This document shows positions 193-18,363 of a stretch of DNA of 24,701 nt, one piece after another. The notes beneath the pieces are model-generated. The model was not told the origin of the DNA. It was given only the letters and a program-made list of their open reading frames with translations, and ran no database searches. The position numbers and the translations under genes were made by a program. Source of the stretch: a virus. Each line of letters opens with the position of its first letter. Position 1 is the stretch's first letter. The stretch lies in IMG/VR virus record IMGVR_UViG_3300038463_000111, positions 1-24,701 of that record, one strand, 5' to 3'.

Positions 193-363
193 TCATAAAG
201 GGGATAAATATAACACCGATTCTTCAATCTTTCGTACTGTCTCTTGAACCTTCTTCTCTGTCGCCGAGCCCATAGTTTTCATCATATGGGTCCTAATATT
301 ATTAATTGATTCTGGACATAATCGACGTTCGCCGAATGCGCCAAATAGGAAATTGATTACCAT
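193..363 (-). CDS. Hidden 56-aa ORF downstream of the fibre
   Basis: Reading from the ATG at 363, which overlaps the fibre stop codon (ATGGTAA), the minus strand is open for 56 codons to TGA at 195-193. The product starts [14 protein letters not shown] and continues into a charged helix ([19 protein letters not shown]), ending YLSPL. No strong ribosome site precedes the ATG, so translation would depend on coupling to the fibre gene. An internal ATGATG with TTAGGA upstream could start a 30-aa form. It fills most of the gap between fibre and membrane gene, which supports it. It would be missed by a 60-aa cut-off. Function unknown. Confidence 0.5.
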
Positions 364-3300
364 GTATATTGCATGATTGTGGCGGTAGCCCCTGCTCCCC
401 CAGTATAACCAGTAGATCCCGTGACTCCAGCACTCAACGGACCTGTTGGAGCAATCAAGATGCTCCCTGGAGTTGCTCCAAAAATTTGGATACGTCCCGA
501 GAAGTTATTACCGCCACCATTTGCACCATTGCCGGGGGTTCCGGTCCCACCATTTCCACCTGGTCCGCCAGCTCCGCTGGAAACATTAATAAGATTGGTG
601 GTGGCTTGTCCAGAGACCATCCCAACAATCATATATACCCAACCACCAGCTCCACCACATCCGCCGCCGCCACCACCACCACCGCCAGAAGTTTTAGTTA
701 TACCATTGCTCGCATTACCACCAGTAACCGATATGGCCGATGCGGAAGTAGATGAATCTCTATAGATTTCTGCTGCAGAAATGAATATTGCACCTCCACC
801 CGAACCGCCCCCACCTCCAGCCCCACCAATATTGCCCGCTACACCGCTGCCACCACCCCCACCACCACAACCTCCGCCGCCGCCAGCATAAGGGTTAATT
901 GTTATACCAATCGCTCTGGTGAAATTATCAGTAAGATTGTTTATGGTTCCAGTAGCAGTAGAAGGCAAAGCTGCTATTGCTCCTGTACCCCCAGCAAAAG
1001 TACCAGAGTTGGCACCTTTGCCTGCAATAGCTTGATATCCTTGAGCATTCGTAGTTATTATTCCACCTTGATACTGTGTAGCATTATTATTTATTGCTTG
1101 GCCTCCAGGCGATCCTGCGGTGTTTCCAATACCCGCAGCACCACCAGTGCCTGCAATGCCACTATTCCCACCAATTGTTTCTGGTGCTAAGGCGAGCCCA
1201 CCATTTTGAGAAGCAACAGTAGAAATTCCGTTACGATTTATAGCATTTGCGGGAGCATTCTGAAGATTCAGTGTTCCCGAGCAGTAAATTTTATAACCAC
1301 CAGTACTAATTGTGCTGGTAGAACCAGCTGACCATGACATTGCACTATAATACATGTCACGTGCTAATGTTGTGGTCCCAGAAGCACCTGAAGCGTAAGC
1401 CCCATCGGCACCGTCACCGAACAATTGATTACATAAAGCTAGATCCCATGGATCGCACGGTAATACCACGGCTCCTGAATTAAGAACCGTTCCATGTCCT
1501 GAATTACCCATCACGCCAACGGTCGTCAGGGTTGCAGTGAGTCCGGAAAGAGCTGAGACCTGAAAGGTTCCTTGATTGCCGGTTCCATCTGCTATGAATA
1601 TGTAGAGTCCGTTAGAAAGATTGGCAGCGGAAGTAAATCCAATTGATGCGACAGTGCTTCCAACTGACGGGATCGTAATAGTAGTGGTGGTTACAAGAAC
1701 TGACGTACCAGCAGGTCCTGTGGCTCCTACGGGTCCGGTAGCTCCTTGAACACCGGCTCCAGTAACCCCTGCAACACCTTGCAGTCCGACAGGACCTGTA
1801 GCTCCTGTAACGCCCTGAATGCCTTGAATGCCTTGCGGCCCCTGAATACCTTGTGGCCCTTGAGACCCAGTTGGTCCTGTGGCTCCGGTTACACCATTTA
1901 CTCCTTGCGGTCCTTGCGGTCCAGTATTACCAACCGGCCCGGTTTGCCCTTGCGGACCGGTTGGACCAGTGGCCCCAGTAACGCCCTGAACTCCACCTAT
2001 CGAAACAAGGGATAGGAAAGAATAAGACCAAGTGGGGGTTACACTATTTGTTGTAGCGCAAGTTACTTGAAGTCCAACTTTATCCCCGGAATTCAGAAGC
2101 GCAGGAGCTGTGCCTGAAATTGATACGGTGTTGGTAGCTGCAGCTCCTAAGGTATCAATTTGGAACGGATCGGCTATAAATGCATTTTGTGTAATGTTAA
2201 ATAGAGCAAATTGGAAAGTATTACCAAGTGTAGATTCAAACGATACGGCAAAACTTACGTTGTAATAGCCACCATAAGTAACTGAAATTCCAGTTGCTGA
2301 CCTAGTCGCATTGAAACTAATTTCAGGAGACCATGCAACTCCTCCTGTGTCTCCGAAAACATAATATGTACCTAGAGTCGTAAGAGTCGGAGGAGCGGCA
2401 TAAGCAACATAACCTGCTGCTGAAAGTGCAGCACCTGGACCCGTAGCGCCCTGAGGACCCTGAACTCCAGTGGCCCCTTGAGGACCCGTGATTCCCGGTC
2501 CAGTAGCGCCCTGAGGACCCGTGGGTCCAGTAGAACCAGTAACACCATTTACTCCAGTTGCGCCTTGAGGACCCGCTGGTCCTATAGGACCTGTCGGTCC
2601 TGTGGCTCCAGTTACACCTTGAACACCAGCTCCGGTAGCTCCCTGAGGTCCAACTGACCCCGCTGGTCCTGTGGCCCCCGTGACTCCTTGAGTCCCTCCA
2701 CTAGAAGTAACGCTAAGGTTCGCCCACTGGAGTGCATTGCTTGGACTTCCACCACTTAAACAAGTACCCCAAAGCGTGATTATATCATTAGCATTAAAGG
2801 ACTTAGTGAACGTAAAACCTGCTGATGAATCCGCATCCGTAGCAACACCAGTCCCAAAATTTATCTGGGATTCAACGAGTCTGGATCCGTTAATGAATAT
2901 GGCAAAGGCCCAGGTTGCTGCGGGAGTACTAACTCCCATTGTTGCAGCCCAACTAATTGAGTAACTTCCTCCACTCGTAAGCGTTATGCTTGATGCACCA
3001 AGTGTTGTATTTAGAGAGTCTCCAGCAGTGAAACTTGTGACCTGATAAAATGTAGCTTGTGTAACAGGGGTGAAATTTGAGGCACCATAAATATTCCCAT
3101 AAGCTGATACGGTTATACCTTGTGGTCCAGTGGCTCCTTGGGCACCTGTTGAACCTTGAGGGCCAGTAGAGCCTTGTGACCCTGTTTGTCCTTGTGGTCC
3201 TGTATAACCAGGACCTGTATAACCAGGACCCGTATATCCTTGGGGACCCGTAACTCCTTGGGGACCCGTAGTACCTACGGGGCCAGTGGGACCTGTTGGA

Positions 3301-4547
3301 CCAAGTGGACCAATTGGTCCAGTAGAACCTTGTCCTTGGGGACCCGTAACTCCTTGGGGTCCAACGGGACCGGTTGGACCCGTTGGACCTTGAATCCCTG
3401 CTCCAGTGGCACCTTGTGGCCCCGTGACACCAGTTGGACCAAAAGTCCCTATACTGAAAACATTGAAATTACCGTAAGGATTAATCGAAACTACTCTAGT
3501 ACCAGCATTAGTCGCAGCTATTAGATAAAGAGTGGTTCCAGCACCAAATGAGGCTGTAAATGAACCAGAAACATCACTGGCCTCACCACTTGAATCAGGA
3601 GGAACGCTAACGGTGAATATATATGGTCCAGGGTATGTGGATATTGGATTGATGCCGTCTGTCGATATGGCAAATTGAATTACCGCAGTTGCATTAGTAG
3701 TACTCGAAATATTTAGATTGAAATTAACCGTATAAATACCGGTTTGAAGAATTTCAATATATGCACCGGGACGAGTCGATGGGAAAGGTACATATAGTGT
3801 TGTATTTGCATAATCACCAGCTACCCAACCACCAGTTTGAGTCCAACCGGTGACCGGTGATGTTAGTGTTATCCCGTACCCATCTTCTTGGTATAAATTT
3901 CCGTAAGCAAGTGCAGTCGGTCCAACACCCGTTACACCTTGTATACCTTGAGGGCCAGTTGACCCCTGTGGACCAGTCTGTCCTTGGGGTCCTGTCGGTC
4001 CCGTGAAACCAGTGACTCCATTTACACCAGTGGCTCCCTGTGGACCCTGAGGGCCCGTGTTACCAACAGGACCTGTTAGTCCTTGGACACCGGTCGGACC
4101 CTGAACTCCGGTAGAGCCCTGTGGACCTGTATTACCAACAGGCCCCGTGTTACCTACAGGACCTGTTAGTCCTTGGACACCAGTGGAACCTTGTGGACCG
4201 GTAGAGCCCTGGATACCTCGGGGACCTGTCTCTCCTTGGGGACCCGTTGGTCCTGTGACACCAGTGACACCCTGAGGACCAGTTGGTCCACCATAAGGGC
4301 CCGTGGCTCCTGTGACACCCTGAATACCTTGAGGACCCGTAGCACCTTCAGGGCCCTGAGGACCAACTGGTCCTACTTCACCCTGAGGACCCGTTACACC
4401 CGGGGTTCCCTGTCCACCACCCGGTCCACCGACTTGAGTAGTTACAATTGTGCTTGGTAACGAGACAGTGCTCGTTACGATTATTGGGTCACCAGGGATT
4501 GTTGTAATTACACCTGGCTGTCCGGGAAGTGTGACAATTATAGCCAC
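357..4547 (-). CDS. Collagen-like receptor-binding fibre with three globular domains and a polyglycine tip
   Basis: This is a 1396-aa protein. The start is GTG at 4547 with GAGGTG seven bases upstream. Order: an N-terminal beta part (1-44); collagen-like blocks of Gly-X-Y at about 45-208, 369-478, 619-705 and 852-947; three globular beta domains at 211-368, 479-618 and 706-851; then a beta unit (948-1030) and a Gly-rich tip (1031-1396). The three globular domains share an alternating strand plan ([36 protein letters not shown]), like C1q or BclA heads. The tip holds FGDGADG..., [10 protein letters not shown] and two Gly runs with one Cys each (1222-1233 and 1288-1299), like polyglycine-helix tips of phage adhesins. 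It probably binds the host surface as a trimer. Confidence 0.88.
3199..3228 (-). repeat. 15-bp tandem repeat in the second collagen block
   Basis: The 15-base unit at 3199-3213 is repeated exactly at 3214-3228, and a degenerate third copy follows. It encodes the five-residue step GPGYT, which breaks the Gly-X-Y period. Exact tandem copies can slip during replication and change length in frame. Confidence 0.85.
4054..4184 (-). repeat. 90-bp period DNA repeat in the first collagen block
   Basis: A 41-bp stretch at 4054-4094 recurs at 4144-4184 with two differences, a spacing of exactly 90 bases (30 codons). It encodes the [15 protein letters not shown] unit twice. Near-identity in DNA, in a protein where synonymous codons vary freely elsewhere, points to recent duplication. 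Confidence 0.85.
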
Positions 4548-5997: not shown

Positions 5998-8718
5998 TCA
6001 ACTACCCTTCAGATGTCGAGTTTTTCCGAAACCCTCGTCGAACGAAGTTTTGGTCGCATGAGCTTTTGGTGCTTTACCGCCCCCTCTTCCTTTACCGGAA
6101 GGGGCCACCGTTTGAGGAGCCGATAGGATCATTTGCATCGACATGGTTTCCTGAGGCATACCAAGGAATGTTTTCAGATTTTGCTCTTGGGCGAGAGATA
6201 GGGGTTTGTCCGCTTTCTCAAGTTCATCTTTGAACTTCGAAACACATTCCTTATACATGTCCGGATGCGTTGCCTTGAAGGCTTCAATTTCAGTGCTGGT
6301 CATCCGACCATCTTGGAGTTTCCCAAGAGTCTTGAGCGGAATATTTACTGCCTCATAGCACTGATTGAAATGATCTTTGGCTAGGTCAGACGCGTCAAAC
6401 GTCCTTGCTGTCTTAGGAGTCAATGAACTCGGATCAGCCGACGCGGTCTTCGGAAGTTGTTGAGCCAAATAGGTCACCTGACCCAATGCTCTTGCCTGAA
6501 TCTTATCCTGTAGTCCAGGATCCTCTTGTCCTATCCATCCCGTATGATCTCGATGCATATCTATAGTGGACTGGGGGTCGGAAGCTATTTTCATTACCGA
6601 TTTTGCACGGGTCTCAAAATCTTCCGGATGGTTTACCGGATGAGAATACTCATAAACTTTGGAACCCTGAACTGTGGCTCGCACAATCTTACTCATCACG
6701 TCATCAATATGCGTTGATGCAGCTTCAATTTTAGACCAATTTGATAGACGCGAAGTAACTAAACTAGCTGTGAGAGCACCATCGGGTGAATTCACATAAT
6801 TTTTGATTGATTTTTTGGCCGCTCCTGCGATAAGTGCTCCGGCCGCTGCGGGGAAGTTACCATGTAGTGCAAGACCTCCGGCCGCCGTTAAAGTTGGTAG
6901 TCCAACGTTGGCGATACTTTCCGGTGTTCCTTTTGGTGCACGAAGAGCAGATCTAGTAATCTCTAGAGCCTGGTTCCATGGGTCAAGTTTATCACTAGCT
7001 TTTTCAAAAGTTTTGAATGCTTCATGTGCGGGGTCACCCCCGCCCAATTTCTTGAGGGATTTCTTGATTGAGTCATATATATGGTCATTAAATTTTTGAC
7101 GCACTTCCATAATCGCATTACCGACTTCTGGAATACGAGTTTGCTTGCCTAATTCTCCGAGAGAATTGGATATATCTGCAGCATTAGTGAGTGAAATCGG
7201 TACGTCTTTGAGTTGTTCACGATTCGCTTCGGTAATATTCCCGAGCGAAGATGGTTTCTCAACCATCTGGAATTTTACTTCATCAGGCGTACCTTTGAAC
7301 CCTTGCTTGGCCCAATCTAGGAAACCCTGTGACTTTTGAAATTCCTTACTATTCTGATATAATGCTTGTTCAGCCGGAGTTCGTTCTACTTGCTCTTTGA
7401 GCGTAACTGGAATTTTATCTAGTGCAATATTGACTAAATTTTTCGTTACTTGTACACCATTAACGTCCTCAATCTTATCTAGAGCACGCGAAAATTTCTT
7501 ATCTTTCAGAACACCATCAAGAATATTGAAAATTTCATCCGCTTTAGGATTTGTACTGACATCACCCGCTACATTAATAAGCGGGTCTATCGCCTTGAGC
7601 GAGTTCGTATATTCTTTATTCGCTGCGTCCCAATGAGTTTTGGTACCTTCCAAAACATCTTCTAGGCTTCTCGCAGGTCCAATGACGCCAGCCTTTTCCA
7701 TCGTCTGGCGAACATTTTGTAGTTTGTTACTATCAATCATTTCTCGATAGGTTGGTGACCGATTTGTCGGTTCGGCTCCAGCGAATTTTTTGAAATAATC
7801 ATTCGCTGCTGTCTCCAATCTGGAATTTGCCCATCTTGAAGTACCAGTGACAGCCGATCCTACTGCAGCGCCACCAAGACTAAGAGCACCTCCAAACAGA
7901 GCATTGTGTTGTCCAGAGGCTAAAATTTTATCAGCTGAAAGCCCCTTGTCTTCTTTCAGTTCCTGCCCGGTTTCGGAAGCAAGACCAATAAGTCCACCTT
8001 CCGTCGCACCTCGACCAACAGCCGTGATGCCTTTTTGAGCTAGTCTGCCTGCAACTGTTGTGGCCGGGGATCCGAGAATGGATCGTAAACCAGCTTCAGT
8101 TACATCACCTGCGGCTCCTAAAACACGTGTAGGAGCCGCAATAGCGTCAAGAGCTCCTCGCCCGGCAATCCTTGCAACGCTGCCAGCCTCTCCTGCCATA
8201 AGGCCAGGTGTAGCCAGACCTCCAGTAGCAAGATCAGCTGCAATTGGAGCAATAATTCCAGCGGCTTGTCCCGCCGTGTGATAATTCGGATGTTCCGCCT
8301 CGGATTCCTGGATATACTTGGATACATCGGGTTTGAGTTGTGATTCAATGAGTCCCGGTCCCAGCCCGAATGTTCCTGTGTCGAGCGCTCCAGTAGCCAA
8401 AGAAGTTGCTTTAGAGGCAACTGTGTTGTGTGCTTCATGACGTGCTTCTAGGGCATTGTGTTCGGCCTGCTCATTTTGATGATCTTCTAGCGCCCTCTGG
8501 TATTCATCAGTCGAGACAACGGAAGCGCCGTGTTTATTGACCGCATCAGCTAATTCGGAAACACCAATTGTACCGAGTTGACCATCTTTTGTACGAATTG
8601 GTATCGGTTGACCAGCTCCACCCGGAGCCGAATATCCACCTGAAGCAATAGCATCCGCAACTTCCGTTTCCGGAAGTTGAACCATCTTTCCTGAGGAGTC
8701 TAAAAGAGGAACAGGCAA
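5998..8718 (-). CDS. Large putative internal virion (DNA ejection) protein
   Basis: This is a 906-aa protein. Two short related units open it: residues 2-29 (VPLLDSSGKMVQLPETEVADAI) and 38-67 (IPIRTKDGQLGTIGVSELADAV), each a strand, a DG-type turn and a helix. Keeping the TTG start at 8718 preserves the first unit whole. The next ATG, at 8685, would cut it. Residues 145-290 carry Ala/Gly-rich helices (AAGIIAPIAADLATGGLATP) that could enter a membrane. A second such stretch is near 600-635. The rest is charged helix, and the end is basic (GKGRGGGKAPKAHATK). Size, order and mix of helices fit ejection proteins. No lysozyme motif is seen. Confidence 0.6.
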   Translation of the reverse strand: MPVPLLDSSGKMVQLPETEVADAIASGGYSAPGGAGQPIPIRTKDGQLGTIGVSELADAVNKHGASVVSTDEYQRALEDHQNEQAEHNALEARHEAHNTVASKATSLATGALDTGTFGLGPGLIESQLKPDVSKYIQESEAEHPNYHTAGQAAGIIAPIAADLATGGLATPGLMAGEAGSVARIAGRGALDAIAAPTRVLGAAGDVTEAGLRSILGSPATTVAGRLAQKGITAVGRGATEGGLIGLASETGQELKEDKGLSADKILASGQHNALFGGALSLGGAAVGSAVTGTSRWANSRLETAANDYFKKFAGAEPTNRSPTYREMIDSNKLQNVRQTMEKAGVIGPARSLEDVLEGTKTHWDAANKEYTNSLKAIDPLINVAGDVSTNPKADEIFNILDGVLKDKKFSRALDKIEDVNGVQVTKNLVNIALDKIPVTLKEQVERTPAEQALYQNSKEFQKSQGFLDWAKQGFKGTPDEVKFQMVEKPSSLGNITEANREQLKDVPISLTNAADISNSLGELGKQTRIPEVGNAIMEVRQKFNDHIYDSIKKSLKKLGGGDPAHEAFKTFEKASDKLDPWNQALEITRSALRAPKGTPESIANVGLPTLTAAGGLALHGNFPAAAGALIAGAAKKSIKNYVNSPDGALTASLVTSRLSNWSKIEAASTHIDDVMSKIVRATVQGSKVYEYSHPVNHPEDFETRAKSVMKIASDPQSTIDMHRDHTGWIGQEDPGLQDKIQARALGQVTYLAQQLPKTASADPSSLTPKTARTFDASDLAKDHFNQCYEAVNIPLKTLGKLQDGRMTSTEIEAFKATHPDMYKECVSKFKDELEKADKPLSLAQEQNLKTFLGMPQETMSMQMILSAPQTVAPSGKGRGGGKAPKAHATKTSFDEGFGKTRHLKGS

Positions 8719-8719
8719 T

Positions 8720-10387
8720 TTAGGTGCCTAGTGGCTTGAATGTTTTACCGGGTGAATCTCCACCGCTTGAACGACGAGTCTTCGCAGCTTCAGCTTCATC
8801 AATAGCGTGTTGAACTCGGTCTGCGTTAATATTCGTAATCGAAGTTCCGCTTGGAAGCGATTCCCCAATAAGCGACTCGGAAGCCGGTCGTCCAACGGAC
8901 GAAGACCTGGCTTTCATTTTTGTATCAGCTAAGAGACTAGCTCCTTGCCCATAAAGAAGACTTCCACCTGAATCCATATGGGTCTTCAGTGCATGGAGTG
9001 AAGCTAGATAGTCATCATCCGCTCGAACCTCTTTTGACTCGGCCCGGTCTTCCGGCGATGGTTTCTCGGGCTTTATAGGTTTTGCAATTGGAGCAAACGC
9101 TCCTCTTTGAGAGCCGGGGTAGTAATAGGCAGCTGCGTGTTTGAGAAGTTGATCCGGGTTGACTTCTCGCCCTTCAGCAGCGGCTTTTTGGGCCTCATCG
9201 GCAGCCCACTTCTGAACGCGGGGATCTTGTAAAATATCGGTTTTGCCAGTTGCCGGAGAGTATTTGGTATTCTTGATATAGTCATTGATTCCTTCGAGTG
9301 CAATTTTATTTGACTCGGTCCGGATTTGCTGCGCTGCAATTGAAGCTCTTTGAGCTAGAGCCTGATTGTCGGTTTGAGTACCGATAGCTTCAGCTTTGGT
9401 CGCAGCAGCAGTCATGCCCAATTGCGTAGCGAGTTTAGTCGCTTCTTGGGCATTGTTCGTCATATGGTATGCCTGAGCATACATGGTTTGAGCATTTTTC
9501 GAATTGTGCTCAAAATCGTCCTTTTGGGCTGCAACGTCACGGTCGATGGTGGATTTAAGATTATCCAACATCTGGTTGTTTCCCAGATGAAGAAGTCCCT
9601 GAGCTGCCCCACCAAGACCAGAGGCAATCACCATCAAAATTTGACGTCCCGTACCCATGTTATTCCAGGCGCGGTCGGGGTCGATTTTCTGGTCCTTGAT
9701 CTGATTGAAATATTGCTCTGAAGCCTGAAGTTGCTGTTGTGCAGATTTCTTTAGTGCATCAGCTTCGGCACTTTTATCGTCGGCAAATTTCTGTTGAGTC
9801 TCAGAAAGTTTCCCTTGAGCAACTGCCTTATCGATACCGCCCTCGGATATAACTTTAGCGAGCGTATCGGTCTGAACTGCTTCTTGCTGTTTATCGGCTA
9901 CAGCCTGTGCCCAAACAGCCTGATTTCCCTGAAGCATTCCAGGGTCAACCAATGGACGAACAGCGGCCGGAGCGCCCGGAATTGTCCGGTTAATTGCAGT
10001 TGTATCCGGAGGTGCCCAAGGAGCTGTTGGAGCGACAGGAGCTGCTGGAGCGACAGGAGCTGCCCCTGGAAGCGGCATCGGAGTCACTGGACGTGCTCCA
10101 GCTCCAGCGGGACGTATGAATGGAGCTACCGGTCCTGCAAATGGAGCTTGAGTTCCAAGAGCCCGTCCCCATCCAGAAACATCTGTTCCTGGGTTGACCA
10201 TAGGAACTGTGCCCATAAGTCCAGCATCAGGAGGCGGACCGCCCTGAGCAAGAGGTTGTGATAAATTTACCGGGGTGTTGGCGGCATTTTGGTATTGTGC
10301 CGACTGTTGTGCCTGTTGTAGTGGAGATAAAGAATTCCATACAGACATATCAACGCCCGGAGGCGGCGCGAGAGTTTGATCAGCCAT
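8720..10387 (-). CDS. Putative internal virion protein, Pro/Ala-rich N-terminus
   Basis: This 555-aa protein has an N-terminal 1-150 rich in Pro, Ala and Gly (PVAPAAPVAPTAPWAPP at 111-127), probably disordered. Residues about 150-235 are helical and charged. A Gly-containing hydrophobic helix follows at 249-270 (QILMVIASGLGG), then IDRDVAAQKDDFEH, a pattern I associate with internal phage structural proteins. A long helical region continues to about 365, and the C-terminus is charged and low-complexity. The ATG has GAGGG upstream and overlaps the S74 gene by eight bases. A role in the ejection apparatus is inferred from its position between tail and fibre genes. A structural protein of another kind remains possible. 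Confidence 0.6.
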   Translation of the reverse strand: MADQTLAPPPGVDMSVWNSLSPLQQAQQSAQYQNAANTPVNLSQPLAQGGPPPDAGLMGTVPMVNPGTDVSGWGRALGTQAPFAGPVAPFIRPAGAGARPVTPMPLPGAAPVAPAAPVAPTAPWAPPDTTAINRTIPGAPAAVRPLVDPGMLQGNQAVWAQAVADKQQEAVQTDTLAKVISEGGIDKAVAQGKLSETQQKFADDKSAEADALKKSAQQQLQASEQYFNQIKDQKIDPDRAWNNMGTGRQILMVIASGLGGAAQGLLHLGNNQMLDNLKSTIDRDVAAQKDDFEHNSKNAQTMYAQAYHMTNNAQEATKLATQLGMTAAATKAEAIGTQTDNQALAQRASIAAQQIRTESNKIALEGINDYIKNTKYSPATGKTDILQDPRVQKWAADEAQKAAAEGREVNPDQLLKHAAAYYYPGSQRGAFAPIAKPIKPEKPSPEDRAESKEVRADDDYLASLHALKTHMDSGGSLLYGQGASLLADTKMKARSSSVGRPASESLIGESLPSGTSITNINADRVQHAIDEAEAAKTRRSSGGDSPGKTFKPLGT

Positions 10388-11765
10388 GTTTGGAGCCCTC
10401 TAGTTCTTTGACTCGCTCATGTAACCGGCCAAGACCTGCCATAACGGCCGACAAAGCAACCTTGGGCTCGATGACTTTACCCCGAGGCGTATCACTCACC
10501 ATTTGAGATCCAATTGATGGTGCTCGTTCTACATCTTGAGCCATAACACCCAGGTATTTTCCACCATTCGGTCCGGCCTGACGAGGTTCATCCTGTGGAT
10601 CTTTATACGTGTAAGAAGCTGGATGGAGATAATCCAAGAATGCGTCAGCCAATGTTCTGTGGTCACCATCCACTTTTTTAGCGCGTTCATCCGATTCAAT
10701 GGCTCCAACCATGGACGCCATTTGTGCGGTACTCATACCGCCTGAAGACCCACCAGTTGAAGGTGGTTTCCCTGCTGAACCAGTCAGGCTCGGTAGTCCT
10801 GAAAGTCCAAGAGTTGAAGTCACATCCGAGGTATACTGTCCTTCGGGTTGGATATTTGCTTTCGTATTCACGTCGCTCATTGCACCTGCGCCTGCAACAG
10901 ATGCGGCGGCTTGCATAACGGCTCCAAGGGTTTGTGTACCCTCATTGAAGGTCTGCTGGTTGAGTTGCCCCTGGAGACCCTGAGCCGTGAGATTTTCTCC
11001 AGTATAGGCGTTTAGAGCATTGGTCTGGGCTCCCTGGGCGCCTAATTGAAGACCACCCATGCCGAGACCATACGTATTTTGTTGTGCAGCATTCTGCAAT
11101 GCAGTCTGTTGCTGCAATGCGGCCTGTTGCTGGGCCTGTTGCTGCTCTAAACCATATTGACCTAGAGCCAACTGACCCTGGGTACCATATAACTGTCCGG
11201 CTTGACCTGCCGCAGCATTTTCCATCCCAGCCATCGTTTGCTGGCTCGCTGCCGCCGCCTGACCTTGGGTGGCCGCCAGGTTACCTTGGCCCGCCAACTG
11301 CGCCGCGTTTTGAGAAAGGGCCCCTCCTGTGGCAGAACGGGCCATCGCCATCTGGGATGCGATATTCTGCCCAGTCGCTGCCTGCATCTGGGCCTGAGCT
11401 GCTTGAGCAGCAGGTCCCTTACCTATAGCGGTCTGACCCAATAGGCCAGCCATCGAGCCAACTCCACCCGAAGAACCGGCTAAAGCTGCCTGACTTTGAG
11501 CCTGAAACGGATTAGATATCTGAGCGGCCTGAGCCTGAGCCGCCTGAGCATTGTCAAATTCAGCTTCGGACGATTGACCCTGTCCGAGAATGTTATTGTA
11601 TGCCGCTGCATTAGGACCGGTGACAGCTGGTCCTTGCCCGAATATTGCTTGTCCGATCCCAGCTAGCCCAGTTTCAGGGGCATTAGTCGCTGCCGTCCCG
11701 GCTACAGAATTAGATCCACCTGCCTCGAGACTCGGGTCGTAAGCCCCATAATTGCCTTGACTCAT
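10380..11765 (-). CDS. Gln/Ala-rich virion protein with C-terminal S74-type chaperone domain
   Basis: This is a 461-aa protein. Residues about 70-290 are extremely rich in Ala, Gln and Gly (AQAAQAQMQAATGQ, EQQQAQQQAALQQQ) and should form long helices. The end (about 358-456) matches the S74 intramolecular chaperone pattern: SDERAKKVDG, then LHPASYTYKDP, GKYLGVMAQDVERAP, VIEPKVALSAVMAGL and a closing helix RLHERVKELE. The SD at 358-359 fits the cleavage-site Ser-Asp of the family. A second similar motif, MSDVNTKANI, occurs at 296-305. S74 domains usually trimerise fibres and cut themselves off. Here the carrier is not an obvious fibre. The gene overlaps both neighbours (4 and 8 bases). Confidence 0.8.
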   Translation of the reverse strand: MSQGNYGAYDPSLEAGGSNSVAGTAATNAPETGLAGIGQAIFGQGPAVTGPNAAAYNNILGQGQSSEAEFDNAQAAQAQAAQISNPFQAQSQAALAGSSGGVGSMAGLLGQTAIGKGPAAQAAQAQMQAATGQNIASQMAMARSATGGALSQNAAQLAGQGNLAATQGQAAAASQQTMAGMENAAAGQAGQLYGTQGQLALGQYGLEQQQAQQQAALQQQTALQNAAQQNTYGLGMGGLQLGAQGAQTNALNAYTGENLTAQGLQGQLNQQTFNEGTQTLGAVMQAAASVAGAGAMSDVNTKANIQPEGQYTSDVTSTLGLSGLPSLTGSAGKPPSTGGSSGGMSTAQMASMVGAIESDERAKKVDGDHRTLADAFLDYLHPASYTYKDPQDEPRQAGPNGGKYLGVMAQDVERAPSIGSQMVSDTPRGKVIEPKVALSAVMAGLGRLHERVKELEGSKHG

Positions 11766-14700
11766 GTGCTTCTCGCTCCCGCTGGAATTAGGAGATATCG
11801 CGGACCCAATTCCTGCGTTTCAATAGCAAGTCCAATAAATACTGCACCTTGACCGGTCCAACCAGCAGTTGGGGTATTAGAGGCATATGGGGTAGTATCA
11901 GAAACAGTAAACTGATATTCTTGTCCCATGTTATATTTAGCGCCGATAAACATTTGAACCTGTCCTGGAATTGCAAGAACTGCTAATTGATTTTGATTCC
12001 AATTGACTGTCTGAACTATCGTATTATCGCCATTCAATGCCAATTGAATTTGGAGACCACAAAGATCAGCGCCGGTAGCCAAATTGGATTTCAGACTAGC
12101 CGTAATGACCTGGCTGTATCCCTGGACTGATGTCTTGATCCAGGCTGTGCTTACTGAAGTAGGCACAAAGAAAACCATGTTACTGGAGGTGTTCGTGTCG
12201 AACCAATAAAATGTAGATCCTGGAGCGTTTTCTTGCCAAAGTTGACCGTCTCCTGTCAGGATAGTAAGTAGATTTGGAGACTGATACGATAGACACGCGG
12301 AGGCAACTGGCATAACGAACTGTGCGTACGTATGAAGTGACCATTGTTTCAGGTAGTAGTCATAAACAATTGCAGCCGAGTAGGTTCCATCCGTACAAAT
12401 AAATCGAATTTGTTGTGCTTCAGGGATTTTGACGATATCCACAATGATTGGATATTGATTCGTCAGATCCTGAACCTGTGCTCCAATCCAACTAACTGAA
12501 AGATCTCGACCTAGGAGATAGATCCCATTATTGGATTGAAAGAAAACTCCAACATCGGTCGTTTCAATAGCTTGGGATGAAATACAACCGACATTGGTTG
12601 GTATTTGAATAGGAACAGTCCAGTCCGAACCAGAACTTGTTGGGGACGGACCATTCAGTCCTTGCATAACCCAAATGGAAGATTCCTTGAATACGAGGAA
12701 TTTATCGTCCATGGAGGCAATGGCGGTGATATCTCCTTTTTCAGGAAAGGGAACAACCAAGGTTCCGCTAAATCCTGGAGCTGCTCCGGGCTCAAATACC
12801 TGACTAAACCACACCTGCTGGAGAGTTTCGTCGACCCCTGCGATTCTTCCGCAGTGAGTAATCTGCATAAGAAATGCAGGTGGGTTTATATTTGGTAGCA
12901 CCCCACCAGTTGTGTATAACAATGATGCGGTCTGGAGATTAGCGTCAGATACGTTATCTACAGAAATAGAACTTGGGTACGCGATGTAAGGCGCATGCGT
13001 ATTTGAGCATGCAATTCTATCTAGAAAATAAAATATTGAACCGTTAGCGGTAGTTCTATATATTTCAGCAAATACCTGACCGGGGGTATCAATATCTTTC
13101 CACGTAGCCTGATATGATAGTATCTGCAGTTGAATCCCATATCCCACGAGTGACGGATTGGGGAACGTAATCGGTGAGATGAAGAAGGGAGCAGATCTAT
13201 GAATTAGTCCAGAAGCAGTCTGATATGAATAACAAATCGCATACTGATACAATCCATCCGACAAATCAGCTGATGAGGCATTATACCAAATGGAGTATGA
13301 AAATTCAGGATAGTTGAAGAAGTTATCCTCGAATGCAGTCTTTGCGTCCGTGATGAATGGGGATCCTCCAGATATATGAAGTTCTGATCCCAATTCAGAA
13401 GTTGCATACATATTATCGATATGCTCTTCATCGAAGAAGAAATCACATGTCCAAGACTGTTGGTTGAAACCAGATTGTACTGATACGGATTCACCGGCTG
13501 TGACGAGACCGATAGAAAATCTGGTTCCCGTAGAATCAACATTCATAAGAGAGTGGTGACCACTCCAATATAAAGTTGTATATAACAATTGATAATTAAC
13601 AGACAACACATTTTTGGCAACGGTTGCTACCGGAAGCAATTGGTTATTAACCTGCACATTCTGCCATTGCATCAAGTACATAGTGACTTGCTGCGATTGG
13701 ACCACATTTGACCCGGTATCAACTTGATCAAATAGAAGGAATGCACAAACCATGTAAGGGACTCCCCTAAACATGAATGGGCGTGCTAGTGCATAGTATC
13801 CAACGGGACCGTAATCTGTATAGAAAGTCTCTCCGAAAACATTATTCCAACAAGACCACCCAATCTGAACACATTCAATTCCTTTTGCAGATGAATAATT
13901 CTGTCCATATTGAAATGTGATGAGTAAATGGGAATTATCTAGTCGTACAGCACCGGTTAGACCTGAATTATCGGGGATGGTAGCTTGTTGAGATCCACCG
14001 CCTCCTATAGTGAAAACATAATCACCGGAGTACTGGAGCATGAAATAACGATAGACTGAACTACCGTCTTTGGTTGCAAATACAGCCCAGTTTTGTTCTC
14101 CATAAGTAGCGACAGCAAAATTTGGGTATTGAAGAGTCTGACCCATTGCTGGAACAGCAAAGGTTCGCGATACGTCAAACGCCCCAGTTGGGAAAAAGTA
14201 GGCCCAATTTAAGAGGGTGGAACTATAATTGTATAGAACGATAAAACCATTCTGGGGATCATTTACGTAAGGAACAACATCGTAAGCTGGATTTGTTGCT
14301 GTAACCGTGACCAGAGTTGTCGGAGCTGAGAATGTATTTGTAGAAGGGGAATAATTGATTAGATATAAAACACCGTTCGTTGGATCTTGTGTAAATATAG
14401 CAATTTGGTTTGCTGGCAGTGCCCCTGGAATCACAAAGGCATTATTTATGAGTCCAGTAAGACTGGCGAGTTGTTGAATTACAGTCGGTTCAAGAATTAT
14501 GTCGCCGGTATCGGAGTCATAAACCGTAGCAACAACATTCGTTCCAACTGCGGGAACAAGTTGCATACTGAATGCAATTCGGAGATTTCGATTATTGTAT
14601 GGGAAATCAAGAAGAAATACGAATGTTCCTTGAGATGCGGAATTTACTGGACGGCGCAGCGGATAAACTGGAGGAAGTGGTGATATTTCAGCTACAGCGT

Positions 14701-14989
14701 CGAAGGCTTGAGAATAGAAATAGAGCGTGGAATCGTCTATCATGGTGACGTCTGAACGATTCCAGCTCGTCACATATTGTCCATTAGTAAGAAGCGTAGT
14801 CCCGTTTGGCGGAAGGACTCCGCCAGAATTTAGTGCTTTGATCCCAACACGTTTATCGATAGCCCCAACTTTAGTGAAATTGCCATTTACTACAGAATAT
14901 TGACGAGCATTAGGATCAAGATACTCCTGTGCTGTCTTATTATCAATTCCACCGGCAAAAGGATACTGAACTATTTTAGGCTGGGTCAT
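11762..14989 (-). CDS. Large nozzle/stabilisation-like tail protein
   Basis: This 1075-aa, beta-rich and Tyr/Asn/Thr-rich protein has no collagen or S74 part. Its C-terminal half contains a stretch typical of podovirus nozzle or DNA-stabilisation proteins (T7 gp12 and P22 gp10 types): RIAGVDETLQQVWFSQ, DDKFLVFKESSIWVMQG, GCISSQAIETTDVGVFFQS, NNGIYLLGRDLSVSWIG, then IRFICTDG and YDYYLKQWSLHTY, which resembles repeated propeller blades. The N-terminus opens with FAGGIDNKTAQEYLDPNARQ, as in such proteins. It is longer than T7 gp12 or P22 gp10, so an extra domain is likely. It follows the adaptor and overlaps the next gene by four bases. It probably forms the distal tail tube that closes DNA in. 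Confidence 0.7.
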   Translation of the reverse strand: MTQPKIVQYPFAGGIDNKTAQEYLDPNARQYSVVNGNFTKVGAIDKRVGIKALNSGGVLPPNGTTLLTNGQYVTSWNRSDVTMIDDSTLYFYSQAFDAVAEISPLPPVYPLRRPVNSASQGTFVFLLDFPYNNRNLRIAFSMQLVPAVGTNVVATVYDSDTGDIILEPTVIQQLASLTGLINNAFVIPGALPANQIAIFTQDPTNGVLYLINYSPSTNTFSAPTTLVTVTATNPAYDVVPYVNDPQNGFIVLYNYSSTLLNWAYFFPTGAFDVSRTFAVPAMGQTLQYPNFAVATYGEQNWAVFATKDGSSVYRYFMLQYSGDYVFTIGGGGSQQATIPDNSGLTGAVRLDNSHLLITFQYGQNYSSAKGIECVQIGWSCWNNVFGETFYTDYGPVGYYALARPFMFRGVPYMVCAFLLFDQVDTGSNVVQSQQVTMYLMQWQNVQVNNQLLPVATVAKNVLSVNYQLLYTTLYWSGHHSLMNVDSTGTRFSIGLVTAGESVSVQSGFNQQSWTCDFFFDEEHIDNMYATSELGSELHISGGSPFITDAKTAFEDNFFNYPEFSYSIWYNASSADLSDGLYQYAICYSYQTASGLIHRSAPFFISPITFPNPSLVGYGIQLQILSYQATWKDIDTPGQVFAEIYRTTANGSIFYFLDRIACSNTHAPYIAYPSSISVDNVSDANLQTASLLYTTGGVLPNINPPAFLMQITHCGRIAGVDETLQQVWFSQVFEPGAAPGFSGTLVVPFPEKGDITAIASMDDKFLVFKESSIWVMQGLNGPSPTSSGSDWTVPIQIPTNVGCISSQAIETTDVGVFFQSNNGIYLLGRDLSVSWIGAQVQDLTNQYPIIVDIVKIPEAQQIRFICTDGTYSAAIVYDYYLKQWSLHTYAQFVMPVASACLSYQSPNLLTILTGDGQLWQENAPGSTFYWFDTNTSSNMVFFVPTSVSTAWIKTSVQGYSQVITASLKSNLATGADLCGLQIQLALNGDNTIVQTVNWNQNQLAVLAIPGQVQMFIGAKYNMGQEYQFTVSDTTPYASNTPTAGWTGQGAVFIGLAIETQELGPRYLLIPAGARST

Positions 14990-15480
14990 CCGTAGATCTC
15001 AATGTCCATTAACACCGGAGTACCTTCAACAAACACCGATACCTTCGTCCATAAGGTCAAATAACGGTTCAACGGGTACGGAGGTGTTGGACCAGTTGGA
15101 GCAATTACACAATGACCCTCAATAAATCCTCCAGATACCGCATTTATTCTGTACCCGGTATACGGAACATTCAATTCGTGAGCAATAAAATTGAATCCCG
15201 TAGCTCCTCCCGTGTACCCATTTACTAATGGGACACCTTGCAATAAATTTTTGTTTCCGGTCGGATCAGATTTTGCAACCTGAGTTGCCGATGCAATTTT
15301 AGATTGCAAATCATTGAGGGCACGAGCTACAGCCGGATCTACGTCAGGTGCATTAAATACTTCACGAGCCTGAGTTGGTCCCGGTACTAAAATTGATGGT
15401 TTTGGTACAGGTTGATTACCGGAGGTAGTATTTACCTGTCCGTAAGGTTGATATTGAATACGACCAGGGATCCGCGGCAT
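14986..15480 (-). CDS. Small neck or tail protein of unknown family
   Basis: This 164-aa protein has a Pro/Gln/Gly-rich N-terminal third, a short helix (AVARALNDLQSKIASATQV, about residues 50-68), then a beta-rich end (FNFIAHELNVPYTGYRINAVSGG, then VSVFVEGTPVLMDIEIYG). The layout of an extended arm, a helix and a beta domain suits a protein that ties tail parts together. It lies between the adaptor-like gene and the nozzle-like gene and overlaps the latter by four bases (ATGA). I do not recognise a named family. Confidence 0.65.
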   Translation of the reverse strand: MPRIPGRIQYQPYGQVNTTSGNQPVPKPSILVPGPTQAREVFNAPDVDPAVARALNDLQSKIASATQVAKSDPTGNKNLLQGVPLVNGYTGGATGFNFIAHELNVPYTGYRINAVSGGFIEGHCVIAPTGPTPPYPLNRYLTLWTKVSVFVEGTPVLMDIEIYG

Positions 15481-15483
15481 GAT

Positions 15484-16245
15484 TCAGTAGAACCATCCAT
15501 CGTTCCCGTCATCGTTAATTTCATGCACACGTTCTGCGGAGTTGTTGTCCCTTCGTGGAGCGGAAGAAAGTATTCTCTGCTTTTCCTGTTCCTGTTTCGC
15601 TGAGTATATAGCGATCTGATCCATGCGACCAAACTTCAAAAGAAGATTGATCGCCATATCAAGAACGATGTACTCGTCCCACCCATTTATCGAATCGATT
15701 GTGGCCCCTGGACTTGAAAGTTTTGGAGCTATCGGAATATAATTCAACTTCATCTGAAATACAGATTGAGGAGGAGGCATCAAAACGATGGTTGGAGTAC
15801 CACCGGAGCCAACACCTTGGCATTGGTAATAGACGGTAGTCCCAATGAACCAACCGACCGCACCGAGCCAGAAACGATAGAAATTCCGCTCCTCTTCCTG
15901 AAAAGGAGTGCAGGTGATGATGAGTGTTGGACTTACGAATGCATCGAGTGAAATTACTCGATAGAAATCATTTGGTAGATTATAGATACTTCCAGGCGGA
16001 GGATTTTGTTGCGGTGGATTTGGGGTTCCCTGACCTGGAGTTACATTAAAATAGTATGGAGCTCGATAATAATTACCGTTCCATGTGCTATTTACGATTA
16101 GGTCATACCATTTGGCGATCCCAACGTTTGCAAGGTCAGTTAACTCTTGTGGAGTAATTGCACCATTAGGTCCAACGGCTCCTTCAAGATTTACCCTTTG
16201 CAAAGCTCTTGTCTGTAGCTGAGCGAGTGATACGGAATATGCCAT
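15484..16245 (-). CDS. Head-tail adaptor-like protein
   Basis: This 253-aa protein is probably the ring that joins the portal to the tail. Its C-terminal half has features common to phage adaptor proteins: INLP/NDFYRVISLD early, a Pro-rich strand (TPTIVLMPPPQS), then GWDEYIVLDMAINLLLKF, a helix with many Glu/Gln (SAKQEQEKQRI) and a C-terminal SAPRRDN...AERVHEI. N-terminal residues 1-55 are helical (ALQRVNLEG, ELTDLANVGIAKWYDLI). It is the first gene after the terminator, only about 18 bases from the hairpin, and the next gene starts three bases after its stop. The ribosome site is weak. Assignment rests on pattern and position, without a search. Confidence 0.65.
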   Translation of the reverse strand: MAYSVSLAQLQTRALQRVNLEGAVGPNGAITPQELTDLANVGIAKWYDLIVNSTWNGNYYRAPYYFNVTPGQGTPNPPQQNPPPGSIYNLPNDFYRVISLDAFVSPTLIITCTPFQEEERNFYRFWLGAVGWFIGTTVYYQCQGVGSGGTPTIVLMPPPQSVFQMKLNYIPIAPKLSSPGATIDSINGWDEYIVLDMAINLLLKFGRMDQIAIYSAKQEQEKQRILSSAPRRDNNSAERVHEINDDGNDGWFY

Positions 16246-16263
16246 TATGTACTCTACTCATAG

Positions 16264-16306
16264 AAAAACGCCCCACTAAGCATTTTGAACTTAGTGGGGC
16301 GTTTTT
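16264..16306 (-). terminator. Strong intrinsic (rho-independent) terminator, symmetric
   Basis: A perfect 17-bp stem (16264-16280 pairing with 16290-16306) encloses a 9-base loop. It is GC-rich in the middle (CGCCCCAC / GTGGGGCG), with a run of five A at one end and five T at the other. On the minus strand the T run follows the stem, as needed for termination after the acidic-protein gene. The mirror symmetry means it could also end transcripts on the plus strand. It is the only clear terminator in the window and separates head genes from neck and tail genes. Confidence 0.93.
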
Positions 16307-16324
16307 GTTTGGGTTCGATGACCT

Positions 16325-16582
16325 TTATCCGGTTGGCCCTTCTTCTGGCTCGTCTTTAGCCCCGGAATCTTCTTTTTCCCAAGCGGCGTGGTCCAACCCA
16401 TGGAGAGCTTCAAAAGCCTTGAGAGCGGCCGAGGCGTCCCCTTCTTGGACTGCCTTCATGAAGGCTTCCATAGAGGTATGCTTATGTTCGACAATCTGTT
16501 TTTCGGACAGATCTTCGAACTCATCCTCCCCATCACCCATTTCTTCGGATGATGGGGGCGCCTCTTCCTCTTCGTCAGACAT
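16325..16582 (-). CDS. Very acidic small protein before the terminator
   Basis: From the ATG at 16582 this is 85 aa and starts MSDEEEEAPP. A longer form from a GTG at 16621 overlaps the previous stop as GTGA and would give 98 aa with a basic, hydrophobic N-terminal extension. I prefer the ATG because the extension looks unlike the rest, but the GTG is possible. The protein is dominated by Glu and Asp at both ends, with a helix in the middle (SMEAFMKAVQEGDASAALKAFEAL). It is the last gene before the strong terminator. Acidic small proteins in head operons can mimic DNA or act as assembly factors. No family is recognised. Confidence 0.65.
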   Translation of the reverse strand: MSDEEEEAPPSSEEMGDGEDEFEDLSEKQIVEHKHTSMEAFMKAVQEGDASAALKAFEALHGLDHAAWEKEDSGAKDEPEEGPTG

Positions 16583-16617
16583 TTTAGGTCTGCCTAAGAG
16601 TATGCCAATCGAAGGAC

Positions 16618-17094
16618 TCACGGTTGAGGTCCGTTGCGATAGGTGAAGTGACAGAAAATTGTTGCCCCAACCGGGGGATCTGTGGCAACACCAGCACTAA
16701 ATACAGTGAACGGGATGCTCCACGTATTTAGTTGACCCGAGTTCGACGGGTTACTAGTTGGGCCGACAACCCCAGACACAGTGTTCTGGAACGGAGTTCC
16801 AAACTCAATTGTCCAAGTTCCAGCGGCTTGACCAGCGATTGCAATAGATGCAACTGGAGCAATGACGCCTGCAAATGGATCTGTGGTTGTAACTAGTGTT
16901 GTTCCAGTTGTGCCGGTACCCCCAGCAATTCCAGAGGTACCGCGTTGTACCTGGATAAATTCCCCGTTCGGATCACCTTCTCCGACAACTGGTCCAAGAG
17001 CACCCGTAGGAGCTGCTGGATAGCCAATTGCGAATCGGTAATTTACGTGGAAAAGACCCTGCGTATTTGCTACCTGATATTGATTATCACTCAT
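16618..17094 (-). CDS. Gly/Thr-rich accessory head protein, possible decoration protein
   Basis: This 158-aa protein is not recognised by family. It is low in charge and rich in Gly, Thr, Pro and beta-forming residues (TGTTGTTLVTTT, IAIAGQAAGTWTIEF), and ends in a stretch that reads like a beta sandwich. It follows the major capsid gene, where decoration or head-completion proteins are common. The ATG at 17094 has AAGGAG about eight bases upstream. That site lies inside a 12-bp perfect palindrome. The stop overlaps a GTG of the next reading frame. The decoration role is inferred from position and composition only. Confidence 0.7.
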   Translation of the reverse strand: MSDNQYQVANTQGLFHVNYRFAIGYPAAPTGALGPVVGEGDPNGEFIQVQRGTSGIAGGTGTTGTTLVTTTDPFAGVIAPVASIAIAGQAAGTWTIEFGTPFQNTVSGVVGPTSNPSNSGQLNTWSIPFTVFSAGVATDPPVGATIFCHFTYRNGPQP

Positions 17095-17106
17095 AGGAGA
17101 TCTCCT
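17095..17106 (-). promoter_or_regulatory. Ribosome binding site inside a perfect palindrome
   Basis: The 12 bases just before the ATG at 17094 read AGGAGATCTCCT, a perfect palindrome that contains the GGAG ribosome site. It could fold as a 4-bp stem with a GATC loop and weaken ribosome access. Chance is a fair alternative, since AGGAG is expected here anyway. Confidence 0.35.
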
Positions 17107-17130
17107 TGGTTGTTAAGGCCAGAGAGCCTC

Positions 17131-18363
17131 TCAAAAGGTGAGAACCCCATTATACCCTGGCGCGCTGCAATACGTGGTTGCACGTGCAACCGTACGCAGC
17201 TGGAAGGAGTCCCCGGTTCCACGGAGCCATTCCAGGCCGTCAACACCGGTACCCCAGACGTGAGGAACATCCTGCATGCTGGGCATCAGGAATGTATCCA
17301 ACTGGATGAGGTAACAGATACCAACTGGGCAGAAGACGTCGGTCACGAGCGTCAACTCACCGTATTCAGTCGCGAGAACGGTGCCCTTGAAGGAGAGCTG
17401 AGCGTTATCAAATGACTGAACCGTGGTGTAACGAAGCTGTGTAGTTGCACCCGTGATGATCGCGCTGTAGTCAAGCGGGTTCAGGAGGACGTAATCGGGA
17501 CGTCCACCCATACGCTGAACGTAGCTGGCAATCTTGATGAGCGAAACGTCTTTCTTCGCACCGCCGCCATTCAATGCAACACCGGCAAGACGGGTCGGAT
17601 CTGCGGACCGCACTACCGTATTGAACGCCGTACCCAGGCTTGCGCGCTGATTGTACGCCGGCAACCAACCCTGAAGCCCAGCATAGGCTCCTGCGTAGTT
17701 ACCATTCTGGAATATGTAGTCACCGGCAACGGCTGCAGCAATTCCGCCAGTCCAGTTTCCAGAGACCGTGATGGTCCCATTCATGATGTCGACGGCCGTT
17801 ACCGTAACGGTTCCCGTACGAACACCTGCTCCGCCCGTACCATCATCAGCGGAAAGCTGAAGGATCTGGCCCTGGACGAAGTTGACCATCTGGCTCGGGT
17901 TAGTGAGCGTGATGGTTGGGGTGCCAACGTTGGAGGTCAGAGAGATCTGACCGTAAGAACCTCCACCGTCACCGAAAAGATCCTGACCAAGCATCTGGCC
18001 AATATCGATGAATGCACCATCGAACTCGGAAACCATCGCATCGACAAGGGCATTAGCTTCCCCCTTGGAGCGGTCGATGGCGTTACCGGTGACGTTCGCC
18101 GTTGAGTACGAGTTATTGTACTGGCAAACCCACTGGTTATAGATGGAGCTGGATCCGGCTGAGAAGGCCACGGTGTCCGTATGGCTTGCGGTAGAACCGA
18201 TAGCACTACGGATAGCTCCGTTGAAGGCATACCCGCCTTCGTCGGTCTTCTTGGGGATCATGGCCAAGAAGCTACTCTTGAATGCAAGAGTCTGAATCTT
18301 GGACTGTGTATAGCGCTGCTTGAGAACGGGCGTTACCGCCGTGAAATCGAAGTTAAAACCCAC
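17131..18363 (-). CDS. Major capsid protein, HK97-fold candidate
   Basis: This 410-aa protein follows the scaffold gene and is the likely shell subunit. Length and layout fit the HK97 family: N-terminal helix (VLKQRYTQSKIQTL), an early loop rich in Ser/Thr/Gly, a central beta-rich insertion (about residues 140-215) and a C-terminal part with VQRMGGRPDYVLLNP and PVGICYLIQLDTF, as seen in A and P domains. The start is GTG at 18363, with AGAGG about ten bases upstream. Codon use differs from the neighbours: Lys is nearly always AAG and Phe mostly TTC near the start, a bias often seen in highly expressed genes. No separate protease is seen, so maturation may not need cleavage. Confidence 0.85.
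   Translation of the reverse strand: MGFNFDFTAVTPVLKQRYTQSKIQTLAFKSSFLAMIPKKTDEGGYAFNGAIRSAIGSTASHTDTVAFSAGSSSIYNQWVCQYNNSYSTANVTGNAIDRSKGEANALVDAMVSEFDGAFIDIGQMLGQDLFGDGGGSYGQISLTSNVGTPTITLTNPSQMVNFVQGQILQLSADDGTGGAGVRTGTVTVTAVDIMNGTITVSGNWTGGIAAAVAGDYIFQNGNYAGAYAGLQGWLPAYNQRASLGTAFNTVVRSADPTRLAGVALNGGGAKKDVSLIKIASYVQRMGGRPDYVLLNPLDYSAIITGATTQLRYTTVQSFDNAQLSFKGTVLATEYGELTLVTDVFCPVGICYLIQLDTFLMPSMQDVPHVWGTGVDGLEWLRGTGDSFQLRTVARATTYCSAPGYNGVLTF

Follow-up and report, generated by a model that had tools for sequence, protein, structure and literature searches.

The sequence analyzed here, referred to throughout as the window, is the whole 24,701-nucleotide stretch spanning positions 1 to 24,701 of IMG/VR virus record IMGVR_UViG_3300038463_000111, whose minus strand harbors a gene for a 461-amino-acid (aa) protein with a C-terminal S74 (ICA) domain. 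Besides its canonical S74 head, which takes the form SD...K, this protein harbors a second such motif outside the S74 body, termed here an orphan head. With a probability of roughly 0.6, the protein is proposed to be a gp7/gp14-like podophage ejection protein, likely to aid the passage of viral DNA across the bacterial envelope, which carries S74 as a trimerizing, self-cleaving, and removable C-terminal appendage. This proposal is based on membership in the S74 fold family, on a Ser-Lys spacing that is intact, on a module of three genes, and on the existence of relatives which lack S74. The gene and its constituent parts are as follows:

10380..11765, minus strand: S74 gene, 461 aa, encoding an Ala/Gln/Gly-rich ejection-type protein with C-terminal S74 (ATG start; defined by open reading frame [ORF] and Pfam)
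10878..11765, minus strand: core, residues 1 to 296, Ala/Gln/Gly-rich and partly predicted to be helical (low confidence)
10878..10928, minus strand: residues 280 to 296, the 17-mer of highest hydrophobicity in the protein, immediately preceding the orphan head
10860..10877, minus strand: orphan S74 head S297DVNTK302, Ser codon AGC, with the Ser-Lys spacing of S74
10695..10859, minus strand: Ser/Thr/Gly-rich linker, residues 303 to 357, mostly with a pLDDT below 50
10677..10694, minus strand: canonical S74 head S358DERAK363, Ser codon TCG
10383..10694, minus strand: S74/ICA domain, residues 358 to 461, with a C-terminal helix at about residues 434 to 459

The core is composed of 24% Ala, 18% Gln, and 16% Gly (58% combined) and contains two basic residues, at positions 116 and 143, for which reason few usable peptides are expected from trypsin-based proteomics of the protein. 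AlphaFold2 placed four long helices within residues 86 to 249 of the full-length protein, at low confidence, and the full-length model (pLDDT of 52.7) was too weak for a fold search. Of the Ala/Gln/Gly helical region proposed in a preliminary description of this DNA, the composition was thus upheld, while the helices are predicted at low confidence. A single clear hydrophobic segment, at residues 280 to 296, was apparent.

The PF13884 model matched residues 358 to 415 of the window protein at a borderline score (E value of 2.1e-4; 21.9 bits, the curated cutoff being 22) and exceeded its cutoff in a six-frame search of the genome (24.9 bits; E value of 5.9e-7). Five IMG/VR relatives share the domain at about 50% identity, and the S, D, and K residues of the head are invariant across the six-row alignment of these relatives with the window. 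The Ser-Lys dyad, in which K lies five residues after S, is represented by S358/K363 and also by S297/K302. A 40-row S74 profile, which includes S74 rows of fibers, matched the solved S74/ICA chains 8jov (5e-11), 6f45 (5.7e-11), 7dc3 (7.7e-7), and 3gud (7.8e-7). The predicted structure of residues 340 to 461, whose underlying alignment likewise includes fiber rows, had a pLDDT of 87, and the first 11 rows of a Foldseek search against the PDB were all ICA chains of 7dc3, 3gw6, and 3gud (best row, E value of 2.5e-3 and probability of 1.00). The VIA Z values of this model were 7.1, 6.7, and 6.0 for ICA chains and then 3.1, and 37 viral structure models matched it at E values of up to 0.001, those bearing names being S74, chaperone, neck-appendage, or tail proteins. 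As judged from sequence and model, the window domain is a member of the S74/ICA fold family, which includes the MyRF, endoNF, and GA-1 chaperones. The Pfam match and the predicted fold agree on an S74 domain where the preliminary description had located it, and Ser358 is, as it had stated, the canonical Ser of the SDERAK head.

The S74 gene is located within a structural region whose relevant genes are the following:

8720..10387, minus strand: 555-aa gene which follows the S74 gene and overlaps its end, gp15/gp20-like in position
5998..8718, minus strand: 906-aa gene, third in the module, gp16-like in position
11762..14989, minus strand: preceding gene, 1075 aa, nozzle/tail-tube-like (PHROG match)
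15484..16245, minus strand: SU10-type adaptor, used as the anchor for finding S74-less relatives

The product of the 1075-aa gene matched phrog_3287 (E value of 1e-9) and phrog_511 (E value of 3.5e-9), and a 164-aa gene is also present upstream, beside the nozzle-like gene and the SU10-type adaptor. No Pfam match above the cutoff was obtained for the 555-aa and 906-aa proteins, whose PHROG matches were weak and to families of unknown function. The previously described placement of the S74 gene between nozzle-like and ejection-like genes was therefore borne out by family matches on the nozzle side, while on the other side the 555-aa and 906-aa genes are considered ejection genes by position and module conservation. 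When loci on one contig were merged, homologs of the 906-aa protein (E value of up to 1e-3) were encoded by the second gene after the S74 ORF in 14 contigs, and those of the 555-aa protein, at the same threshold, by the next gene in seven contigs besides the window, the weakest of these seven matches spanning 31 residues. The same gene order was present at locus L002, where the S74 protein is 703 aa long. The window gene fits the first of three ejection genes, being followed by two large genes; as such, it corresponds in position to the genes of T7 gp14 and P22 gp7, although these proteins are about 200 aa in length rather than 461 aa, and several transmembrane helices are predicted for T7 gp14-like factors where the window protein has one clear segment (available text of PMC8954989).

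Relatives without S74 were found at the same position. The adaptor-anchored L088 module contains two tandem Ala/Gln-rich genes (15350 to 17133), diverged ejection-type copies which both lack S74; the first shares 41% identity with the window core (226 columns; E value of 4e-7), and the second matches it at an E value of 0.038. L093 contains one Ala/Gln-rich gene without S74, which is related by position only. PF13884 gave no match over the whole records of L088 and L093; as this model misses the headless S74 of L009, its silence alone is not proof of absence, and two extra profiles, both of which recover the S74 of L009, were hence applied and returned no S74 in the L088 and L093 stretches up to an E value of 10. 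Because these S74-less relatives occupy the same position, S74 is optional on this ejection-type protein. The related protein of ctMlz233, also without S74, ends only a few residues away from the hydrophobic stretch, and that of ppBjS10J-1, likewise without S74, runs on further past it.

Comparable arrangements are present in named phages. The S74 proteins of RHph_N2 and ppBeUSDA76-2 matched phrog_4287, "DNA ejection protein" (E values of 3.2e-16 and 1.5e-24, respectively), and each is followed by two large genes, while the depositors of phiGT1 annotated S74 on phiGT1_17, ahead of "internal virion / injection" genes. P0012 of Vibrio phage 199E37-1, annotated as a "DNA transfer protein," gave an S74 match under the Pfam cutoff and is encoded directly before a gp20-type Inj_translocase, itself just under the cutoff (E value of 1.6e-6). 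Similar to the window, phiGT1_17, RHph_N2 EVC05_012, and ppBeUSDA76-2 WAX24423 (phrog_4287/phrog_6121) present a hydrophobic stretch, S74, and then two large genes, but, unlike the window protein, they have one head and a short S74.

The presence of S74 on ejection-type proteins is already known at the annotation level; among the papers listed by literature searches, none treats it in its title or the opening of its abstract. In the portions available, a review of ejection proteins (PMC8954989) does not mention S74, the main text of the phiGT1 paper (PMC10386132) contains neither "S74" nor "endosialidase," and the phiM1 ejectosome paper (PMC11440229) contains neither "S74" nor "intramolecular chaperone." In the text obtained of PMC4992974, the sole occurrence of an intramolecular chaperone is in a cited reference about the coat protein of P22, and the six mentions in that of PMC11990801 all concern tail fibers. 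In phages, the domain has until now been studied chiefly on tail spikes and fibers; the accessible part of the 2021 paper on the MyRF structure lists endosialidases, K5 lyases, L-shaped tail fibers, and neck appendages as its phage families (PMC8326128).

The wider distribution of S74 was surveyed in a sample drawn by DNA patterns, which is thus biased, comprising 168 S74 ORFs (128 nonredundant), from which five with fewer than 100 residues before S74 were dropped. A split by composition assigned 75 of the remaining 123 carriers to a group with an Ala/Gln/Gly/Met-rich upstream part (group E) and 48 to a group with other upstream parts (group F). The pre-S74 parts of the 75 group E proteins matched phrog_4287 (13 proteins), phrog_6121 (virion structural; 13 proteins), and phrog_598 (DNA ejection; 2 proteins), with four further families matching one protein each; no tail-fiber family was represented, though 43 or more of these proteins gave no match at all. 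The window protein itself gave no tail-fiber match in Pfam or PHROG scans. The 48 group F proteins matched 96 families, tail-fiber, spike, and baseplate names being common among the 25 shown, and nine members of phrog_6121 were present in this group. Where sufficient downstream DNA was available, the next ORF was at least 300 aa long in 55 of 67 group E loci versus 18 of 45 in group F. Within the 250 residues before the first head, the most hydrophobic 17-mer ended no more than 15 residues from that head in 48 of 74 group E proteins (5.4 expected) and in 19 of 47 group F proteins (3.7 expected), the latter group containing, on by-eye reading, ejection-like proteins. Since such a stretch is also present in some other S74 carriers, it was rejected as a feature specific to ejection proteins. 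In L074, L049, L016, L064, L026, and L067, S74 follows a hydrophobic stretch; some of these proteins are long, and they look like baseplate or structural proteins rather than simple fibers.

A subset of S74 ORFs continues well beyond the domain, at least 300 residues following the first S74 in 17 ORFs (16 nonredundant). L223 contains a full-length phrog_4287 match, S74 at residues 320 to 371, and then transglycosylase matches (SLT below the Pfam cutoff; phrog_4067 with an E value of 1.4e-14), and L176 contains phrog_4287 and S74 followed by a VanY match just below the cutoff. Such peptidoglycan-hydrolase matches after S74 were obtained for two of the six fused ORFs scanned, the other four giving none. 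In 4 of the 17 cases, the fused tail matched a gene that stands alone downstream of an unfused S74 ORF; three of these four matches cover only about 116 to 194 residues. Two S74 stretches occur within one ORF in L227, L157, L158, L181, and L137 (the second in L137 being weak and partial), as well as in L147, which is ended by the contig end. These first five double-S74 ORFs are about 1200 to 2000 aa long, and phrog_4287/6121 matches were present in the three scanned (L227, L158, and L137). A fused S74 ORF is also present in one GenBank record, ct7L0027. An S74 domain between two ejection parts would look as expected for a self-cleaving separator. L209 and L194 represent one contig on which S74 is present on both a fused ejection-type ORF and a fiber-type ORF.

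These data bear on the possibility that the window protein is an external trimeric helical part, such as a tail needle or the helical trimeric whisker suggested in the preliminary description, whose tip S74 would assemble as on fibers. In P22, the gene for the needle comes after that for the nozzle, and the location of the window gene, directly after its nozzle-like gene, is therefore also compatible with a needle; moreover, S74 has been studied on external trimers, and the long helices of the AlphaFold2 model, although of low confidence, would suit such a part. Nevertheless, this explanation is considered improbable, as the upstream parts of the 75 group E carriers gave hits to ejection, virion structural, or unnamed families but to no fiber family, although at least 43 of them had no hit, the S74 carriers of phiGT1 and Vibrio phage 199E37-1 directly precede injection genes, the S74-less relatives have no such tip domain, and fusions to peptidoglycan-hydrolase parts occur. 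For a P22-type tail needle, no family match to the window protein was obtained, the core fold being of low confidence. The alternative raised in the same description, an internal protein that is not an obvious fiber, is backed by gene order, by the S74-less relatives, and by the family matches of relatives.

The orphan head of the window protein, S297DVNTK, which directly follows the hydrophobic residues 280 to 296, was absent from the preliminary description; orphan heads and the presence of S74 inside fused ejection ORFs are the surprising parts of this analysis and go beyond its wording. In the literature searched, no paper treats orphan heads or S74-split fusions in its title or the opening of its abstract. 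Outside the S74 body, the SD...K motif occurred 18 times in 17 of the 75 group E proteins, versus a mean of 3.8 in shuffled sequences (0 of 500 shuffles as high), and the stricter SD.[RNEK].K occurred 10 times versus 0.55 expected. A chance match at residue 297, consisting as it does of a six-residue motif with three fixed letters, is on these numbers judged quite unlikely. Five of eight control motifs were near expectation (DS...K, 4 versus 3.65; SE...K, 3 versus 4.1; SN...K, 4 versus 3.7; SD...R, 8 versus 5.6; SD....K, 6 versus 3.7), and the S297 head begins exactly where the most hydrophobic 17-mer stops. In favor of chance, three controls also exceeded their shuffles, namely, AD...K (20 versus 8.3; 0 of 200), TD...K (8 versus 3.35; 2 of 200), and SD..K (8 versus 3.7; 8 of 200), for which reason shuffles represent an imperfect null for repetitive proteins.

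Group F, as defined by composition, contained 12 orphan heads versus 3.6 (1 of 500), an excess which is in part due to its inclusion of the ejection-like L011, L134, L196, and L048. Regrouping by eye, in which 14 proteins were moved after heads had been seen in some, so that the composition-only count takes precedence, gave 27 orphan heads in 22 of 89 group E proteins versus 4.7 (0 of 500) and 3 in 34 group F proteins versus 2.8 (254 of 500); about six of these 27 resemble fortuitous hits. An earlier hand-picked test of 21 and 16 proteins had given 10 versus 0.88 and 4 versus 1.6, respectively. Some proteins, namely, L187, L134, and L196, have three or four heads. In L002 and L009, a head after the S74 body precedes a long uncharacterized region with some shared motifs around EGHxA, as noted by eye.

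In ten multi-head proteins chosen by hand, the 60 bases on either side of the heads were mostly diverged (identity of 0.17 to 0.55; 0.22 and 0.25 for the window), while S, D, and K were kept; this pattern speaks against recent duplication and in favor of constraint or of repeated origin. The head serines use both codon classes in five of these ten proteins, the window (AGC and TCG) among them. Heads were only slightly more alike within than between proteins (0.294 versus 0.223; permutation P = 0.038).

Conservation of this kind is also relevant to the notion that S74 serves here as a noncleaving trimerization or folding tag, the orphan head being an evolutionary relic. Such a role would be in keeping with the odd heads of some members (Ruegeria phage 45A6), and with the five proteins which have no adjacent head, these being L048, L186, L212, and L228, in which an insert separates head and S74 body, and L009, whose sole head comes after the body. 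It is nonetheless regarded as unlikely, given that the dyad is kept in nearly all S74 rows, that S, D, and K persist in the ten multi-head proteins despite their diverged flanking DNA, and that all five of the 89 proteins without an adjacent head have one elsewhere.

Returning to the proposed self-cleaving ejection protein, its processing can be modeled on known S74 systems. According to the parts of PMC8326128 and PMC3742440 available to us, S74 forms a trimer and then cuts before Ser via the Ser-Lys dyad, and MyRF trimerizes mainly through its C-terminal helices, its cleavage requiring the ICA trimer and not the upstream stalk. As given in the available text of PMC8326128, MyRF S587/K592 is equivalent to endoNF S911/K916, and the triple-beta-helix of endoNF takes part in cleavage. 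The window protein shares with the MyRF ICA domain (7dc3) the S74 fold and the dyad, and its proposed processing would resemble that of MyRF, in which S74 serves to release the functional N-terminal portion of a membrane-linked protein (PMC8326128 and PMC3742440, in part). MyRF, however, is a eukaryotic transcription factor whose transmembrane part lies after S74, whereas the hydrophobic stretch of the window protein lies before it, and one cleavage site is described for MyRF in the text obtained, as opposed to two candidate heads in the window. The endoNF and GA-1 neck appendage S74 domains (3gw6 and 3gud) have the same fold and catalytic motif, but their carriers are spikes and appendages, unlike that of the window.

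By analogy with MyRF, the three C-terminal helices would form a coiled coil, and the S74 trimer would present the SD-x-x-x-K head to its own body, leading to cleavage before Ser358, the one site named in the preliminary description; Ser297 may be a second candidate site, used in addition to Ser358 or in its place. The self-cleaving role is favored by the recurrence of orphan heads and by the two fused ORFs in which phrog_4287 and S74 precede a transglycosylase or VanY match. The product would be an Ala/Gln-rich helical protein ending in or near the hydrophobic stretch, and a cut at S297 would leave it at about the natural end of the first L088 copy, L093, and ctMlz233. A likely purpose would be to maintain a sticky, membrane-active chain in a soluble and ordered state until its packing into the head. 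The timed release put forward in the preliminary description is plausible, because the dyad and the modeled fold are intact. If S74 does trim ejection proteins, it would provide a handle on how membrane-active injection proteins stay ordered before ejection, and the duplicate cutting motif hints that some phage DNA-injection proteins may be made as longer, self-trimming precursors. An extension of this scheme, advanced here tentatively, is that a podophage-type branch has ejection proteins which are self-processing precursors, in which one trimeric S74 body may cut its own and orphan heads and fused ORFs may be split into pore-type and peptidoglycan-hydrolase parts.

Several observations weigh against the assignment as a self-cleaving ejection protein. 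When built from the six closest domains alone, a profile did not reach any S74 chain in the PDB (best rows, fructose-bisphosphatase; E value of 0.027), no Foldseek PDB row for the S74 model reached an E value of 0.001 or better, and its VIA Z values were below 8. phrog_4287 matches the window protein weakly (E value of 0.0012), over a stretch overlapping S74, and matched nowhere in a record search, in which its controls were also silent. Some S74-bearing tail and baseplate-like proteins also carry a hydrophobic stretch before the head, and two of the five S74-less relatives read (the second L088 copy and ppBjS10J-1) extend some 25 to 40 residues past theirs. In several named phages, the S74 unit measures only about 66 to 72 aa and seemingly has no counterpart of the long C-terminal helix required for trimerization of MyRF; a different mechanism may therefore apply there.

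The window protein, its S74 part, and the S74 parts of two relatives had no tblastn match in phage records, among which the terminase, searched in the same manner, matched 1520, and a typed consensus returned seven weak rows. A scan of genome contigs with A1 confirmed nothing; a second contig scan, with the domain of L006 as the query, recovered L080 and L081, and in the phylum of the L080 genome, 3 of 377 genomes matched, one being the L080 genome itself. Pelagibacter phage HTVC010P, which has a tail-tube gene layout, was rejected in the absence of a PF13884 match in its record. The window terminase (21801 to 23201, minus strand) best matched, among phage records, Thermus and Meiothermus phages (37 to 41%). 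Two of these terminase neighbors, Thermus phage Riverbug and Meiothermus phage MMP17, were set aside: both carry tail-sheath genes, in contrast to the window with its podovirus-type structural module, and their gene tables show no comparable module. The end of the window's structural module is occupied by a gene (357 to 4547, minus strand) for a 1396-aa collagen-like protein, in which long Gly-x-y runs are interspersed with other domains.

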